Assembly: GCF_022436485.1 (NCBI RefSeq)
Contig: NZ_JAKUDO010000001.1
Location: 2,046,001 to 2,110,000 of the forward strand
From: Agrococcus sp. ARC_14
GTDB lineage: Bacteria > Actinomycetota > Actinomycetes > Actinomycetales > Microbacteriaceae
Reading direction: 5' to 3'
DNA: 64,000 nucleotides
Numbering within the stretch: the first letter of the stretch is position 1; each line of letters opens with the position of its first letter. Under the pieces are notes generated by a model, which made no database searches, was not told the origin of the DNA, and saw nothing but the letters and a program-made list of their open reading frames with translations. Of the stretch, positions 1,450 through 8,704 are shown piece by piece. The position numbers and the translations under genes were made by a program.

Positions 1450-1555
1450 GCGTACCAGGCTACCGACGACACGGGCCTTACCTCGCGCATCCCACCTGTG
1501 GATTCGGCCTGGAGTCGGGCCGCGCAGCCTCGGTCGACCGGAGTAGCCTCGCCGG

Positions 1556-1843
1556 GTGGAGTTCGAGTTCCGTGCCGTCGCGATCGAATGGCGCGGGCCC
1601 GCGCCCTTCGTCTTCGCGCCGGTGCCATCCGACGAAGCCGAGATCATCCGCGACAGCGCGTCGGAGCTCACATACGGCTGGGGCGTCATCCCCGCCGAGG
1701 CGACGATCGGCGGCACGACCTTCACGACCTCGCTCTTCCCGCGCGATGGCGGCTACCTGCTGCCCATCAAGGTCGCGGTGCAACGGGCAGAGGGCGTCGC
1801 CATCGGCGACGAGGTGACGGTGCGGATGCGACTCGGCCGCTGA
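1556..1843 (+). CDS. DUF1905 domain-containing protein
   Basis: A 95-residue protein starting at GTG 1556. It has the short beta-rich DUF1905 pattern: an N-terminal strand EFEFRAVAIEWRGPAPFVF, the central TYGWGVIPAEATIGGTTFTT segment, FPRDGGYLLPIK, and the C-terminal GDEVTVRMRL. The family is small, widespread in actinobacteria and without assigned function; some longer relatives carry a second YdeI-like domain, absent here. It is divergent from the DsbA-like gene, with 106 bases between them for both promoters. Confidence 0.75.
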   Translation: MEFEFRAVAIEWRGPAPFVFAPVPSDEAEIIRDSASELTYGWGVIPAEATIGGTTFTTSLFPRDGGYLLPIKVAVQRAEGVAIGDEVTVRMRLGR

Positions 1844-1946
1844 TGAGGCGGGGCACAGTCGGCGCATGCCCGGCAGTCAGTCCCGACGAGTAGCATCGCC
1901 CGCGCCCGGTGCCGCGCACCGCGGGGCACCTCGACGAAGGGATCGC

Positions 1947-4184
1947 ATGGACATCGCAGCACGGATCGGCCGCATCACGGCATCCGCTTCGACGGCCGCC
2001 GAGCGCACCGTCCATCGGCTCGCGAAGCCCGCCGCGATCCTGCTCGCGCCCGTGCTGCTGCGCCAGGCGAAGCAGCTGCAGCGCAACCTGGTGTGGCTGC
2101 CGGAGCCCAAGGGCCAGCGCCACGGCACGATCGCAGCGCCCCTGAGCGCGACCGCGGAGGCACCGCCGCTGCGGCTGCTGGCGATCGGCGACTCCACCGC
2201 GACCGGCGTGGGCGCCGACAGGCTCGACGACGGACTGGTGCTGCAGACCGCCGCGCGCCTGGCGCTGAGCGAGCAGCGCCCCGTCGAGTGGCGCATCATC
2301 GGCCTCGAGGGCTTGACGGCCGCGCAGGTGCTCGAGCGCCACTTGCCCGAGGTCGAGCAGGAGTGGGATGCGATCCTGCTGCTCGTGGGTGCCAACGACG
2401 CCCTGCAGCTCGTCGGTCGCACCTCGTTCGCGAGGTCGATCCGCCGCCTCGTCGCCGGGCTCGCCGAGCACCTCGCTCCCGGCGGCGTGATCGGCCTCAC
2501 GGGCGCGCCGCAGATCGACACCTTCGTGTGGCTGCCGCAGCCCATCCGCTCGCTCATCGGCGGCCACGCACGCACCCTCGACGACGTGCAGCAGCGCATC
2601 GCCGCCACCGATGAGCGCGTCATCCATCTGCCCACGCCCGCGATCGTCGAGCCCGAGCAGCATGCGGCAGACGGCTTCCACCCCTCGGCGGCGGGATACC
2701 GGCTCTGGTCGAGCATCGTCGCTCCGCGACTCGCACAGGCACTGCAGCGCCGCGCCGTCGCGGAGCCAGCGCGGCAGGAAGCGGCGGCCCCGCGCGCCGA
2801 GTCGGAGGCGCAGGCCGCGCAGCACGTCCGTCGAGGCATCGTGCCGCCCTACTTGCTCGAGCAGCTGGCCGCCGCCGACCTCCCGACGGCCTCGATCGTC
2901 GCCGAGCGCACCCTCGGGCTCGACCGCGGCATCCGCGCAGAGCGCGAGGCCCATCCCACCGCCCACCCGAGCCTCGTGCCCGACCGGCCCGCGCGCGTCC
3001 CGGGCGAGGCGCCGGCGCCGCACCGCGTCATCAGCGACGCGAAGGGCTCGACGACGCTGCCGGGCACGGTCGTGCGCAACGAGGGCCAAGACGCGACCGG
3101 CGATACCGCGGCCGACCAGGCCTACGAGGGGCTGGGCGCCTCGTGGCAGCTGCTCATGGCGGCCTTCGAGCGCGACTCGCTCGACGGTGCCGGCCTGCCG
3201 CTGCAGGCGACGGTGCACTACGGCCAGCAGTACGCGAACGCGTTCTGGGATGGCACGCGCATGGTGTTCGGAGACGGCGACGGCGAGATCTTCGCGGGCT
3301 TCACCAACGCGGTCGACGTCATCGGCCACGAGCTCGGCCACGGTGTCATCTCCTCCACAGCCGATCTCGTCTACCGCGACCAGCCCGGCGCGCTCAACGA
3401 GTCGATCGCCGACGTGCTCGGCTCGCTCGTCAAGCAGCACTCGCTCGACCAGACCGCAGAGCAGGCCGACTGGCTCATCGGCTCCGGCGTCTTCACCGAC
3501 ACGGTGCAGGGCGTGGCGCTGCGTTCGATGGCTGCTCCCGGGACGGCCTACGACGACCCTGCGCTCGGCAAGGATCCGCAACCCGGCCACATGGATGACT
3601 TCGTCGTCACGCGCGACGACCTGGGTGGCGTGCACATCAACTCCGGCATCCCGAACAAGGCCTTCCACCTCGTCGCGACCACCATCGGCGGCCGCGCGTG
3701 GGAGGCGCCAGGGCTCATCTGGATGGACGCCCTCACCGGCGGGCTCTCCCCCACCGCCGACTTCGCGACGTTCGCGGCCGCCACTGTCGACGCATCCGTC
3801 GCCAGGTTCGGTGAGGACGCCGCCGAGACGCAGGCGGTGCGCGATGCCTGGGCCGCGGTCGGCGTGACCGGGTCGGCGGTGCCGGATGCGTCGGTGGACG
3901 ACGAGGTCAGGCTCGCGCGCACGGGCGGCATGCTGGGCAGGACGCAGGCGGCAGTGCTCGAGCTGGAGATCATCCCGGGCGACGACCGCGAGCAGCTGGA
4001 CACGCTCGTGGCCTCCGGCGTGCTGGAGGATCTCGAGTCGCAGACGCTGCCGGATGCGCCGCTGTGGCGGGTCACCGTCGAGACGAAGTGCGACGTGACG
4101 GTCGCCGAACCGCTGCTGCCGGAGGAGGTGCTGGCGCTGTTCCGCCGCCTGCTCGAGCTCGGCGACGAACCGCCCGCGCCGTAG
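1947..4184 (+). CDS. Three-domain fusion: SGNH/GDSL hydrolase, M4 (protealysin-like) metallopeptidase, emfourin-like inhibitor domain
   Basis: 745 residues. ATG 1947 is preceded by a Shine-Dalgarno-like GAAGGGA; an in-frame upstream start at 1866 is less likely. Residues 75-265 form an SGNH esterase: block I GDSTATG with nucleophile S83, block III GAND at 148-151, block V DGFHPS with D242 and H245. After an Ala/Glu-rich linker (about 270-293), residues 296-645 are a complete M4 peptidase. They comprise the protealysin-type propeptide mark IVPPYLL, zinc motif HELGH 461-465, third ligand in GALNESIAD (E485) and transition-state histidine in HINSG (H563). Residues 651-740 match the emfourin (M4 inhibitor) family: RTGG near the start and a closing LPEEVLALFRRLLEL helix. 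There is no obvious secretion signal; protealysin relatives are often cytoplasmic. In the family the inhibitor usually sits in a neighbouring gene. The SGNH fusion is not one I know, and no stop, start codon or ribosome site is seen at the junctions. Confidence 0.85.
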   Translation: MDIAARIGRITASASTAAERTVHRLAKPAAILLAPVLLRQAKQLQRNLVWLPEPKGQRHGTIAAPLSATAEAPPLRLLAIGDSTATGVGADRLDDGLVLQTAARLALSEQRPVEWRIIGLEGLTAAQVLERHLPEVEQEWDAILLLVGANDALQLVGRTSFARSIRRLVAGLAEHLAPGGVIGLTGAPQIDTFVWLPQPIRSLIGGHARTLDDVQQRIAATDERVIHLPTPAIVEPEQHAADGFHPSAAGYRLWSSIVAPRLAQALQRRAVAEPARQEAAAPRAESEAQAAQHVRRGIVPPYLLEQLAAADLPTASIVAERTLGLDRGIRAEREAHPTAHPSLVPDRPARVPGEAPAPHRVISDAKGSTTLPGTVVRNEGQDATGDTAADQAYEGLGASWQLLMAAFERDSLDGAGLPLQATVHYGQQYANAFWDGTRMVFGDGDGEIFAGFTNAVDVIGHELGHGVISSTADLVYRDQPGALNESIADVLGSLVKQHSLDQTAEQADWLIGSGVFTDTVQGVALRSMAAPGTAYDDPALGKDPQPGHMDDFVVTRDDLGGVHINSGIPNKAFHLVATTIGGRAWEAPGLIWMDALTGGLSPTADFATFAAATVDASVARFGEDAAETQAVRDAWAAVGVTGSAVPDASVDDEVRLARTGGMLGRTQAAVLELEIIPGDDREQLDTLVASGVLEDLESQTLPDAPLWRVTVETKCDVTVAEPLLPEEVLALFRRLLELGDEPPAP

Positions 4185-4209
4185 CGCCGGGCCGCCCCCG
4201 CGGACGCCG

Positions 4210-4305
4210 CGCCGTACGCGCCCCGCTCGCGCCTCGCCTTCCGCGCCCCGCTCGCGCCTCGCCGTACGCGCCCCGCTCGCGCCTCGCCTTCCACGCCCTC
4301 GCTGG
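4210..4305. repeat. 25-bp tandem repeat, about 3.8 copies
   Basis: Units of 25 bases start at 4210, 4235, 4260 and 4285. Units 1 and 3 are identical and begin CGCCGTACGCG; unit 2 begins CGCCTTCCGCG; unit 4 begins CGCCTTCCACG and decays. All share the core CGCCCCGCTCGCGCCT. It lies in the convergent gap after the protease fusion and is not inside a supported gene. Confidence 0.85.
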
Positions 4306-4333
4306 CACGCCGCCTCCCTCGCCGTGCTCGCCC

Positions 4334-4393
4334 GCAGAATGTCGAGTTGGAGCACGATTGTCGCGACACACGTGCTCCAACTCGACAATCTGC
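4334..4393. repeat. 60-bp palindromic element, copy A
   Basis: The arms 4334-4356 and 4371-4393 are inverted repeats (22 of 23 positions match) around a 14-base centre that itself contains the palindrome TGTCGCGACA. A second copy with the same centre is at 5525-5584. Copy A sits between the convergent stops of the protease fusion and the nuclease-like gene, so it could also end transcription from both sides. Confidence 0.85.
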
Positions 4394-4462
4394 CGGGGCG
4401 GGTTGTGCAGCGGCGGGCGCAGAGGGAGGCGACGGTCAGGCGCAGCGCGCGTGCGACCGCGG

Positions 4463-5413
4463 TCAGGCGGCAGGGACTCGCTGCGACAGCGCCGCCCGGC
4501 GGCGCAGCACGTCGGCCAGGTCGGCCAGCCACTGCTCGGCGCTGGGCACGAAGTCACGATTCGTCGCGCGCACCACGTGCAGCCCGACCCGATCGAAGTC
4601 GCGGTACTTCTGGATGTCTCGATCCCACTGCTGCTTGGAGCGATGGCCTTCACCTTCGTACTCCTCGACGACACCCGATTCCCGGTGCATCAGGTCGGCG
4701 CGCCCGAGGAACCTGTTCGTCCCAGGTTCGAGCACCTTCACCTGCACCTCGGGCTCGGGCATGCCGGCGTCGACGATGAGCAGTCGCATGTCGGTCTCGC
4801 GCGGTGATTCGACGCGGGACCGGATGCGCGGCAGCGCGCTGCGCAGGGTGGCGGCGCCGGCCATGCGATTCCAGCGCTCCGTGATGGCCCGCAGGTCGTC
4901 GAGCGTCGCGAGCGGGCCGGGGATGCGTCGATCTGGATAGCGCTCGAACGCCGAGATGAGCGCGTCTCCGATGACGACCAGCTCGTGCACGGTGCACCGC
5001 TCACCCATGAGCGCCCACGCGAGCGCAGGGGATGCGACGCGCACGCCCTCGACGTCCCACACGTCGAAGTGAGATGTGGCGATGCGTCGGACCCGCACCT
5101 CGTCGCGCTCGGGATGACCACGACCGATCACCGAGACGACGTGCACATCGTTGTCCTGCGCAAGGCGCCATGGCACCGGGAGTCCGAGGAGTGCGAGCGC
5201 GGATGGCCCGCCGAAGCACTGCCACGGTCGGAGCAGCGGTGCGAAGGCCTGCGCTCGCTCGAGCACTGAGGTCGGTGCCTCGAGCGTGCGAACGCCTCTG
5301 TACGGCGTGCAGAAGTCGGCGCCACGCAGGACGCCTCGCGTCAATCCCTGGTCGAGCGCGTCGCGGAGCGCGAAGCCCTCGCGGCGCAGCGTCTCGGGCA
5401 GCTCGTCTTGCAC
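4463..5413 (-). CDS. AbiEi-like / DUF559-type protein with PD-(D/E)XK nuclease-like C-terminus
   Basis: 316 residues from GTG 5413; longer in-frame starts would run through the palindrome at 5525-5584 and give low-complexity sequence, so the shorter start is preferred. Residues 1-140 resemble the winged-helix and linker region of AbiEi-type antitoxin-like proteins (CFGGPSALALLGLPVPWRL; then SPALAWALMGERCTVHELV). Residues 200-305 look like a Vsr/DUF559 nuclease fold: E207, D240 in GRADL, the acidic run VVEEYEGEGH (E250, E251, E253, H257), then WDRDIQKYRDFDRVGLHVVR. This is a common orphan type in Microbacteriaceae; whether it cuts DNA or acts as an antitoxin is unknown, and no toxin partner is adjacent. 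The gene is bracketed by the two 60-bp palindromes. Confidence 0.65.
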   Translation of the reverse strand: MQDELPETLRREGFALRDALDQGLTRGVLRGADFCTPYRGVRTLEAPTSVLERAQAFAPLLRPWQCFGGPSALALLGLPVPWRLAQDNDVHVVSVIGRGHPERDEVRVRRIATSHFDVWDVEGVRVASPALAWALMGERCTVHELVVIGDALISAFERYPDRRIPGPLATLDDLRAITERWNRMAGAATLRSALPRIRSRVESPRETDMRLLIVDAGMPEPEVQVKVLEPGTNRFLGRADLMHRESGVVEEYEGEGHRSKQQWDRDIQKYRDFDRVGLHVVRATNRDFVPSAEQWLADLADVLRRRAALSQRVPAA

Positions 5414-5524
5414 CCCGCGAAGATCGCACAGTCGAAGACGCCGCTGCCGACGCTCTCCACAGCCCCGCAGGCCCCCGGCATCGGCCTCCCGGCGCCACCC
5501 CGCCCCGGCCCTCGCTCGCCGAGC

Positions 5525-5584
5525 GCAGATTGTCAGGTCGGGGCACGATTGTCGCGACAGACGTGCCCCAACTCGACAATCTGC
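5525..5584. repeat. 60-bp palindromic element, copy B
   Basis: Arms 5525-5547 and 5562-5584 are inverted repeats (20 of 23 match). The 14-base centre is identical to copy A except for one base and again includes TGTCGCGACA. It lies between the start of the nuclease-like gene and the stop of the ThDP enzyme gene, both on the minus strand, so it may also serve as terminator for the latter. Confidence 0.85.
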
Positions 5585-5627
5585 CTCGAGGGGAGGCGGG
5601 GCGCTGCGGGGCGCGGCGGGGCGCTGG

Positions 5628-7340
5628 CTACTTGGCAGCCGCTCGCATCGCTGCCTCGCGGATCTCGACGATGTAGGGGGCGACCACCTGCTGGCTGACG
5701 CGGCAGTCTGCGACGAAGACGCCCTCGGCACCGGACGCGAGCCACGCCTCGAGCTGCCGCAGGTCGTCGAGCGTCTCGATCACGGCACCAGCAGCGCCCA
5801 GCCCACGGCCGAGCGCCGCGAAGTCGACCTGGTCGATGAGCATGGGCTCCTCTGCCACGCCGCGCACGGCGTACTGGTGCACCTCTGCGCCATATGCGGC
5901 GTCGTTCACGACGATGACGACGCCGTGACGCACCGTGCGCACGACGCTGTCGAGATCGGCGAGCCCCATGAGCGCACCGCCATCGCCCGAGAGCAGCACG
6001 ATGGTCGACTCGGGGCGCGCCGCACCCGCTCCGACGGCGCTCGGGAACCCCAGGCCGATGGTCTGGAACGCCGTGCCGACCATGATCAGGCGCTCCGGAT
6101 CGGCGACCGAGAGGTGCGTCGGGCCCCAGCCGATGAAGTGGCCGCCGTCCTGCACGATCACCCGATCGGCGGGCAGGATGCGCTCCAGCGCGTGGAAGAG
6201 GCTGCGCGGGTCGAGGCGGCCGTCGGGAGCGGCGGCGTCCCCAGCCTCACGCTCGAGGTGCGCGCCCGTGACATCGCCGACGCCAGCATCCGCCCACGCG
6301 GCATCGGCGTGAGCGCCGTCACCCTCGGCGCCGACCAGCGCGAGCAGCGCCTCGGCGACCAGCCGCGCATCGCCGCGCACGAGCTCGTCGACGCGCCCGT
6401 TCGTCGCTGCCGGGAGCACGTCGACCTGCAGGATGCGCGCGTCGTGCGCGAAGGCATCGCCGAAGCGGGTCTGGAACTGGTTGAGGCTCGCGCCGACGAC
6501 GAGCACGACATCGGCCTGCTCGATCGCTGCAGCGGCGCGCTCCGAGGCGAAGCCGCCGCAGATGCCGAGGTGGCGCTCGGCCGCCGAGAAGATGCCGCTG
6601 CCGAGCGCGCTCGAGGCGGTGCGTGCACTCAGGCGCTCGGCGAGCGCGCGCAGCGCGTCGTCGGCTCCCGCCAGATGCGCGCCACGGCCGGCCAGCAGCA
6701 GCGGACGGCGGGCGGTGGTCAGCAGCTCGGCGACCTCCGCGAGCTGCTCGGCGTCGAGCGAGACGAACGCGGCTTCCGATGACGGCAGCGCCGCAGCCCG
6801 CTCCCCGTCGCCGTCGCCGTCGCCGTCGAGCGGCGCGTGGCCGATGTCGTACGGGATCGCCAGCACGACGGGACGGCTCTCGACCAGCGCCGTCTCGACC
6901 GCGTGCCGAGCGGCGGCTCGGGCGTCGTCGCGACCGACGACGATCGTCGCCGCGCCGATCGCCGAGGCGACGGCCAGCTGGTCGACGTCCCACGGCCGGG
7001 CGCCGGTGGTCGGCTGGTCGCCGACGACGCAGACGAGTGGGATGCGCGCCTGGGCGGCCTCGGCGAGCGCGGTGATCGCGTTCGTGAAGCCGGGCCCGTA
7101 GGTCGTGGTGGCGACGGCCAGCCTCCCGCTCGCGCGGTAGAAGGCGTCGGCAGCCGCGACGGTCGCGGTCTCGTGCCGCACGGTCGTCAGGCGCATGGCG
7201 CCGCGCCGCACCACCGCGTCGAGGAACCAGGCGTTGCCGTTGCCCATCAGACCGAAGACGTCGGTGGCGTGCTGCTCGAGCTCTGCCGCGATGGCGGCAG
7301 AGACGGAGCTCGTGGCTGGGATGTCGAGTGCGTCAGACAT
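5628..7340 (-). CDS. Thiamine diphosphate-binding enzyme (acetolactate synthase-like)
   Basis: 570 residues from ATG 7340 with GGAGAA upstream. The three-domain ThDP layout is clear: the N-terminal pyrimidine-binding domain with catalytic glutamate in TVRHETAT (E58), the central nucleotide-type domain, and the C-terminal pyrophosphate domain with GDGGALMGLADLDS followed by NDAAYG. Family members decarboxylate 2-oxo acids or synthesise acetolactate-type products. No regulatory small subunit or branched-chain amino acid gene is near, so a biosynthetic IlvB role is unlikely and the substrate is unknown. A DGDGDGDG linker comes from a hexanucleotide repeat at 6805-6828. The 209 bases upstream, to the ATPase gene, show no other gene. 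Confidence 0.8.
   Translation of the reverse strand: MSDALDIPATSSVSAAIAAELEQHATDVFGLMGNGNAWFLDAVVRRGAMRLTTVRHETATVAAADAFYRASGRLAVATTTYGPGFTNAITALAEAAQARIPLVCVVGDQPTTGARPWDVDQLAVASAIGAATIVVGRDDARAAARHAVETALVESRPVVLAIPYDIGHAPLDGDGDGDGERAAALPSSEAAFVSLDAEQLAEVAELLTTARRPLLLAGRGAHLAGADDALRALAERLSARTASSALGSGIFSAAERHLGICGGFASERAAAAIEQADVVLVVGASLNQFQTRFGDAFAHDARILQVDVLPAATNGRVDELVRGDARLVAEALLALVGAEGDGAHADAAWADAGVGDVTGAHLEREAGDAAAPDGRLDPRSLFHALERILPADRVIVQDGGHFIGWGPTHLSVADPERLIMVGTAFQTIGLGFPSAVGAGAARPESTIVLLSGDGGALMGLADLDSVVRTVRHGVVIVVNDAAYGAEVHQYAVRGVAEEPMLIDQVDFAALGRGLGAAGAVIETLDDLRQLEAWLASGAEGVFVADCRVSQQVVAPYIVEIREAAMRAAAK
6805..6828. repeat. Hexanucleotide microsatellite (CCGTCG)x4 inside the ThDP enzyme gene
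   Basis: Four perfect CCGTCG units encode the acidic DGDGDGDG loop between the first and central domains of the ThDP enzyme. Six-base units keep the frame, so copy-number change would lengthen or shorten the linker without breaking the gene. Confidence 0.8.
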
Positions 7341-7549: not shown

Positions 7550-8704
7550 CTAGGCGCGGAAGCTCTCCCGCGCCTTCGTCGGCATGCCGAGCTGCGCGTC
7601 GTGCGGATGCTCGCGCAGGTGCTCGCGCATGCGCGGGATGGCGAACCCCACCAGCCCGCGCGCCGGCGCCACGATGATGCCCCCGTCGAGCAGCCTGGCG
7701 CGCTGCCGTGCCGCGTTGCCTGCCGTCGTCTCCATGCGCTCCGCCACGACCGCCGTCGATGCGGGCTCGTCGTCCTGCGCCATCGCCAGCAGATAGTCGC
7801 GGTCGCGGCTCGAGAGTCCGCGCAGCGCCGGCACGATCACGCTCTCCCCCATCGCGGCGTAGGCGACCTCGACGGCGTGCTGCACCGCATCCGTCGTGAT
7901 CTCCGAGGTGCTGGGGGTGTACTCCCAGGCGCGGGCACCGATCGACTGCACCAGGTAGGGGTAGCCCTCGCTCGCCCTGGCTGCGCGCTCGAGCGCCGCC
8001 TCGCCGATCGTGCGGCCGCGGCTGCGCACGGGCTCGGCGACGGCAGCGCGCGTCTCGGGCAGCGTGAGCGTGTCGAGCCGCACCTGCTGCGCGCGGCGGA
8101 AGAAGGTGAGTCCGTCGGCGTCGAGCGCCGCGGCGATCGAGGCCGGCACGCCCGCTGCGACGATGGCGATGCGGCGATCCTCGCGCATCAGGTGCTGCAC
8201 GGCGATCGCGATGCGGCGCAGCTGCTCGAGCGAGGCCTTCGAGACCTCGTCGAGCGAGACGAGCAGCCCGGCGCCGCGGGCCTCGGCGAGCTCGACGAGC
8301 CGCGCAAGCATGCTCTCGAGCCGCGGCTCGCGGTCATAGCGCTGCTGCACGTCGGTGCGCACGCCGCCCAGCTGCGAGACCGTCAGCCCCGTCACCTCGC
8401 GGCTCACCGCATCCGGATCCTGCTCCTGCAGCATCGCCGGCAGCCGGTCGTGCTCGAGCGCGTCGATGAGCCCTGCGTGCAGCGTGCCGTGCACCACCGT
8501 CCAGTCGTGGGCGAGCGCCGCATCCTCGACGGCGTTCAGCAGCACGGTCTTGCCCACGCCGCGCATGCCGGTCACGAGCGCCGCGCGGTAGGGCGACCAC
8601 GCGCCGAGGCCGAAGACCTCGCGCCACTCGTCGAGCAGCGCATCTCTGCCAGCGAGCATGGGCGGCGAGATGCCGAATCCGGGCCTGAAGGGGTTGTCGT
8701 GCAC
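7550..8704 (-). CDS. AAA-type ATP-binding protein with C-terminal winged helix
   Basis: 384 residues from GTG 8704; the longer open frame upstream is the shadow of the membrane-protein gene. Walker A GMRGVGKT is at 46-53 and Walker B LLVSLDE at 147-153, followed by an Orc/STAND-like arginine-rich region and a helical lid (EGYPYLVQSIGARAWEY). Residues about 300-370 resemble a winged helix (GLSSRDRDYLLAMAQDDE, then ERMETTAGNAARQRARLLDGGII) as in Orc1/Cdc6-like solitary ATPases. Such stand-alone genes are frequent in actinobacteria and of unknown role; they may be DNA-linked switches. It is divergent from the lysoplasmalogenase-like gene. Confidence 0.7.
   Translation of the reverse strand: MHDNPFRPGFGISPPMLAGRDALLDEWREVFGLGAWSPYRAALVTGMRGVGKTVLLNAVEDAALAHDWTVVHGTLHAGLIDALEHDRLPAMLQEQDPDAVSREVTGLTVSQLGGVRTDVQQRYDREPRLESMLARLVELAEARGAGLLVSLDEVSKASLEQLRRIAIAVQHLMREDRRIAIVAAGVPASIAAALDADGLTFFRRAQQVRLDTLTLPETRAAVAEPVRSRGRTIGEAALERAARASEGYPYLVQSIGARAWEYTPSTSEITTDAVQHAVEVAYAAMGESVIVPALRGLSSRDRDYLLAMAQDDEPASTAVVAERMETTAGNAARQRARLLDGGIIVAPARGLVGFAIPRMREHLREHPHDAQLGMPTKARESFRA

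Follow-up and report, generated by a model that had tools for sequence, protein, structure and literature searches.

How is a protease switched on when its own inhibitor is part of the same chain? The question is raised by a gene of Agrococcus sp. ARC_14 lying in a 64,000-nucleotide stretch of DNA, here called the window (contig NZ_JAKUDO010000001.1, positions 2,046,001 to 2,110,000 of the forward strand). The 745-residue product joins an SGNH hydrolase, a protealysin-type propeptide, an M4 protease and an emfourin. That it is a self-processing cytoplasmic polyprotein, laid out as esterase, propeptide, protease and inhibitor, is in our judgment an evenly balanced proposition. A more specific version is plausible, though we would not quite bet on it: the zymogen protease uses the ancestral leader-removal site to free the fused esterase, and the propeptide and then the fused emfourin act as successive locks. 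Protealysin-like proteases of Gram-positive bacteria are, to our knowledge, little studied. The esterase/protease pair occurs in fused, overlapping and dispersed form within one genus, which makes the switch-on question testable.

The reading frame is open without interruption for 745 codons, from ATG 1947 to the stop codon at 4182-4184, on a contig of 2.7 Mb. The mechanically called open reading frame starts at 1866; the start at 1947 agrees with the N-termini of homologues. The protein is the sole match in its own genome (E <= 0.001). A protein search admitting lengths of 0.55-1.75 times the query scored 7995 candidates and gave 1790 matches. Among the best 120 of these, the closest named relatives are Agrococcus proteins (e.g., P0002 of A. 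baldri, 84% identity), and the whole architecture is found in 24 full-length clusters of 715-761 residues, the window protein included. Pfam recognizes Lipase_GDSL_2 at residues 79-253 (E 1e-16), Peptidase_M4 at 366-468 (E 4e-25), Peptidase_M4_C at 472-640 (E 5e-49) and Emfourin (PF20242) at 656-735 (E 2e-7; 31.8 bits versus a cut-off of 27). Ten residues are invariant in all 24 clusters: S83, G119, N150, D242, H245, H461, E462, H465, E485 and H563. A sequence-only reading of the locus had claimed a single-frame, three-domain polypeptide with intact active sites, and the uninterrupted frame, the Pfam domains and the catalytic residues all confirm it.

Blocks I, II, III and V, with catalytic S, G, N and D/H, are the hallmark of SGNH hydrolases. 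All four are present in 24/24 clusters (S83, G119, N150, D242/H245), the window protein also matches PF13472, and the N-terminal module is a putative esterase by its fold and catalytic residues. It shares both with the SGNH/GDSL hydrolases ("lysophospholipase L1-like esterase"), the near folds being 8ik1 (EstL5), 7e16 and TesA (4jgg). The protease has the thermolysin fold with HExxH, E and H, and the best Protein Data Bank match of the window protein is 2vqx, protealysin (E 4e-105), in keeping with the protealysin group to which it had been assigned. The C-terminal domain resembles emfourin (M4in; 6zyg, "Protealysin-associated protein") in scoring over the PF20242 cut-off and in keeping the R-[ST]-G-G-x-x-G loop; it differs in being fused to the C-terminus of the protease. 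At E up to 1, each of the 24 clusters scores against PF20242. A profile built from 25 emfourin domains, that of the window protein among them, hits 6zyg (E 5e-4). The loop reads GGMLG in 29 and GGTLG in one of rows P0001-P0030; in the other rows GGFAG is commonest, accompanied by GGLLG, GGLAG, GGVAG and a few GGMLG. A transmembrane form finds no support: the best 19-residue mean hydropathy in the whole protein is only 1.18 (residue 168), with about 1.0 in the N-terminal helix.

There are four modules, not three: the earlier reading missed a propeptide between esterase and protease, along with the conserved autocleavage-like motif at the SGNH junction. This segment of about 50 residues with a PP(L) motif was recognized by profile alignment to 2vqx (from residue 5) and by its fold; the predicted fold is zymogen-like. 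At the junction with the SGNH domain the sequence GIVPP is conserved in 24/24 clusters, and in the profile alignment Arg296-Gly297/Ile298-Val299-Pro-Pro of the window protein corresponds to Arg-Ser/Val-Ile-Pro-Pro of protealysin. Protealysin of Serratia proteamaculans is, according to one report, made as an inactive M4 precursor whose processing and activation follow lysis; its first autocatalytic cut is intracellular, falls at Arg-Ser/Val-Ile directly before the PPL motif and costs it seven residues (PMC6778150). In the window protein a whole esterase stands where the protealysin precursor (2vqx) has this seven-residue leader. The motif is also found in 83 of 90 SGNH-less M4 rows (P0031-P0120), 81 of the 83 with a leader of 28 residues or less. 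Since the same motif follows a short leader in these rows, SGNH stands where the leader would be, and cutting at the conserved site would set it free. Furthermore, the esterase is separate in some related species, which suggests a chain built for cutting itself apart.

The proposed sequence of events is as follows. The M4 part would be made as a protealysin-type zymogen with its own propeptide filling the active site. The first autocatalytic cut, between Gly297 and Ile298 just before the Pro-Pro of the propeptide, would release the SGNH esterase in place of a leader. A second cut near Gly353/Glu354 would take off the propeptide; the mature N-terminus of protealysin is reported as AKTSTGG (PMC7311988). 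Emfourin, still attached to the C-terminus of the mature protease, would then serve as a second, intramolecular lock, and the covalent SGNH link would chiefly set 1:1 co-production. Both cuts, the inhibition in cis and the cytoplasmic location are inferred. In Serratia the inhibitor is reportedly the product of a separate gene of the same operon and forms a 1:1 complex with protealysin, at the region of its active site (PMC9505478); because of this, an emfourin in the same chain would be a natural second lock. In the full-length structural model a stretch of the emfourin loop (662-664) has a predicted local distance difference test score (pLDDT) under 50; when the predicted mature part is modelled by itself (pLDDT 93, predicted template modelling score, pTM, 0.80), the loop has no such low-scoring stretch. 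The change is compatible with emfourin docking after loss of the propeptide, without showing docking.

Several observations weigh against this scheme. With E values up to 1 allowed, the Pfam propeptide family PLN_propep (PF16485) recognizes only 7 of the 24 clusters, at best with E 0.012, and the window protein is not among them. The window emfourin has a modest Pfam score, a phmmer search of the Protein Data Bank with this domain alone found no emfourin, and the profile aligned to 2vqx reaches 6zyg only at E 0.69. The pTM of the full-length model is only 0.61, leaving the domain arrangement unsure, and AlphaFold has probably seen 2vqx. The fusion is retained in 14 of the 17 genus genomes that have both parts, so the link itself could be useful. 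Attachment of emfourin could serve folding instead of inhibition.

The architecture is real, restricted to one genus and assembled from known parts. A search with residues 1-290 alone, which scored 7993 candidates and would overlook fusions carrying another kind of SGNH, returned the same 24 clusters, a truncated Agrococcus protein (P0026) and a distant SGNH protein (P0121, 31% identity). Matches spanning SGNH and M4 were seen in 6 of 299 genomes of the family (among the matches listed) and in 3 of 347 genomes of the order (at E <= 1e-60), all of the window's genus. The SGNH addition thus appears restricted to Agrococcus in the data searched, and the domain order SGNH-M4-emfourin, which the earlier reading had put forward as apparently undescribed, was not seen in any other genus of the family among those matches. 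Eight SGNH-only matches in other family genera (37-43% identical) adjoin no M4 match, again among the matches listed. No description of an SGNH-M4-emfourin fusion was found in the titles and openings of abstracts listed; most subscription papers were out of reach, and absence is unproven.

M4-emfourin fusions without SGNH are common: PF20242 is found in 85 of the 90 rows P0031-P0120. These actinobacterial proteins of about 440-540 residues share the M4-emfourin chain and the propeptide motif with the window protein but lack the SGNH hydrolase. Many bear the NCBI name "protealysin inhibitor emfourin"; such single-domain names can conceal both the protease and the esterase of a chain. In a class sample (the 30 best-scoring emfourin loci from 82 matched genomes among 296, by motif search), 25 loci have M4 as a separate gene, immediately upstream and in the same orientation; the other five comprise two fusions, two with no M4 motif within 1.5 kb and one at a contig end. 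Thus emfourin stands beside or is joined to an M4 motif in 27 of the 30, as it is joined in the same chain here. The earlier view of emfourin as usually a separate neighbour holds for this sample, but it missed the fusions that already exist without SGNH.

Within the genus the locus occurs in several states. The sample consists of 24 genomes, window included, two of them (G003 and G015) less than 90% complete. The fused form is found in 14. In two (G004 and G005) SGNH and M4-emfourin are adjacent genes that overlap: SGNH ends with the TGA of ATGA, pro-M4-emfourin starts there, and AGGAG lies about 10 bases before. In one (G011) the locus is broken; the SGNH gene retains the left neighbours (DsbA-like, DUF1905) and M4-emfourin the right (thiamine-pyrophosphate (TPP) enzyme, AAA protein, Asp/Glu racemase), which places the break between SGNH and M4-emfourin. 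M4-emfourin is alone in three (G008, G021, G023), beside DsbA-like and racemase genes. A further three (G003, G012, G015) gave no M4-emfourin match, just SGNH matches of 24-33% identity, and in G020 the sole trace is a 71-residue emfourin match in a 72-residue open frame. The earlier reading would have been undermined by three separate genes in close relatives; two genes occur there, with emfourin still joined to the protease. As a separate observation at the broken G011 locus (L097, ~7600-7750, and L098), a repeat of the GTGGGTGGCCCCACCTAGG type, present in duplicate, comes after the SGNH gene. A frame that also follows this gene is, by eye, one we take to resemble HNH/DUF222 proteins, and a frame upstream of the displaced M4 gene is presumably ComF-like, also by eye.

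Fused, overlapping and dispersed states interchange in the genus. On the M4-emfourin tree of 34 rows, built without the doubtful split rows P0025 and P0027 and 9 outgroup rows, the fused state needs four changes, two of them forced by starred branches. A single clade of all fused rows was rejected (p-AU 0.003, approximately unbiased test), hence the junction has changed more than once. An earlier tree of 45 rows required six changes, at least four forced; it left out the partial P0026 and included P0025 and P0027, which are split by gene calls alone, P0027 being without an initial M. The rpoB tree, limited to 20 genomes because a full rpoB match was lacking in G003, G004, G009 and G015, needs four changes, two forced, and leaves the deeper part of the main clade undecided. 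Both one old fusion followed by several splits and several fusions from an overlapping pair fit these trees. The SGNH-less clade, with its partly syntenic locus, suggests that SGNH either joined the protease later or was lost in that clade.

These state changes bring up the foremost alternative, that two closely spaced genes pass back and forth between the overlapping and the fused state through minor shifts of frame in a tail under no constraint, the fusion as such having no role. Besides the changes on the trees and the ATGA overlaps, it draws on the linker of the fused G019 locus (L005, ~2320-2345), which retains AGAGGA and an in-frame GTG resembling the split-gene start of G005; G019 may thus produce the protease part by itself as well as the fusion. 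Yet such a start relic was seen, by eye, in G019 only of the 14 fused loci, and the fused state occurs in several well-separated lineages. We consider this explanation rather unlikely, noting that neutral fusion and self-cleavage are compatible and could both hold.

A slightly more doubtful alternative is a durable bifunctional enzyme in which the attached SGNH positions or guides the protease, for instance on membrane lipids by way of the N-terminal helix. Retention of the fusion in 14 genomes speaks for it, as do the invariant SGNH active site and the correlated divergence of SGNH and M4-emfourin (r 0.73 over 27 rows; none of 2000 permutations as high), which is weaker where one member of the pair is split (r 0.45, 72 pairs). 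Each of the three split pairs has a nearest relative by SGNH and one by M4-emfourin; the two agree for G004 and differ for G005 and G011. The open genes of G004, G005 and G011 oppose it: since 3 of the 24 genomes keep the parts as separate genes, the joint enzyme is weakened, and of the self-inhibited protease-esterase pictured by the sequence-only reading the module identities stand, while the lasting union does not fare well. The protealysin autocut motif at the junction also counts against it, as does the linker, variable in length (4-27 residues among the 24 clusters) and sequence (mean pairwise identity 0.35). The ratio of nonsynonymous to synonymous substitution rates (dN/dS) was computed in nine pairs, one of which (L012/L013) is near-identical and carries little information. 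It is 0.14-0.37 for SGNH, 0.00-0.27 for M4, 0.00-0.63 for the propeptide and 0.10-0.40 for emfourin; in the linker (269-295) it is 0.39-2.64 in seven computable pairs and exceeds 1 in five. The self-processing polyprotein offers an explanation for the survival of fused, overlapping and separated versions alike, as the cut would free SGNH anyway.

An antibacterial effector, that is, a delivered esterase-protease toxin with emfourin as built-in antidote, is very improbable. A toxin/antidote proposal has been made for Serratia protealysin and emfourin (PMC9505478), but an antidote joined to its toxin travels along with it. Hydropathy gives no membrane span (no signal-peptide program was run), and PADLOC-DB yielded no match at E up to 0.01. 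Those neighbours that Pfam recognizes (ASCH, DsbA-like, DUF1905, TPP-enzyme, AAA and Asp/Glu-racemase), largely syntenic in relatives, also point away from it. Finally, an assembly or annotation artefact has a negligible chance: recurrence of the fused frame in 14 of the 24 genus genomes, and in the 24 clusters, makes the frameshift or assembly error that the earlier reading had named as a refutation very unlikely, and dN/dS is below 1 in every module.

Features of the gene, in window coordinates
Feature	Position	Strand	Basis
Whole gene: SGNH hydrolase - protealysin propeptide - M4 protease - emfourin, 745 aa	1947..4184	+	frame, Pfam, homologues
Shine-Dalgarno-like AAGGGA ahead of ATG 1947	1937..1942	+	by eye
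N-terminal helix, residues 2-46	1950..2084	+	predicted model, hydropathy
SGNH/GDSL hydrolase domain, residues 73-268; S83, G119, N150, D242, H245	2163..2750	+	
Variable linker, residues 269-295	2751..2831	+	alignment of 24 clusters, dN/dS
Predicted first autocleavage site, residues 296-302 (R-G/I-V-P-P-Y), cut between 2837 and 2838	2832..2852	+	homology
Protealysin-type propeptide, about residues 298-353	2838..3005	+	profile alignment to 2vqx, predicted fold
M4 (protealysin-like) catalytic domain, residues 354-640; predicted mature start E354	3006..3866	+	homology to AKTSTGG
HELGH zinc-binding motif, residues 461-465	3327..3341	+	
Emfourin domain, residues 653-738, family loop R-T-G-G-M-L-G (658-664)	3903..4160	+	Pfam, profile

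The absence of a stop, start or ribosome site at the junctions, also claimed from the letters, holds as far as the frame is uninterrupted; at the SGNH junction start-like bases do occur. At 2833-2843 GAGG is followed after four bases by GTG (2841-2843), the codon of V299 inside GIVPP. By eye, these bases are absent from the 13 other fused loci compared, and V299 is unlikely to be a translation start. A scan of window positions 1500-4600 found no sigma-70-type promoter.

Downstream, a GC-rich tandem repeat follows right after the stop codon (4192-4313; period 25, or 50 with 2.4 copies). A long palindrome between convergent frames (4335-4392) is predicted to fold into a hairpin of -38.8 kcal/mol (z -7.7). 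Its motif has 11 matches in the genome at three or fewer mismatches, some of them the two arms of one palindrome; another match lies at window 5547-5578. The palindrome may be an intergenic repeat dispersed in the genome, or else a terminator working in both directions. On the minus strand, 4463-5731 holds a 422-residue frame that matches no Pfam family at E up to 0.001, and sequence similar to this frame adjoins the locus in G004 and G005.
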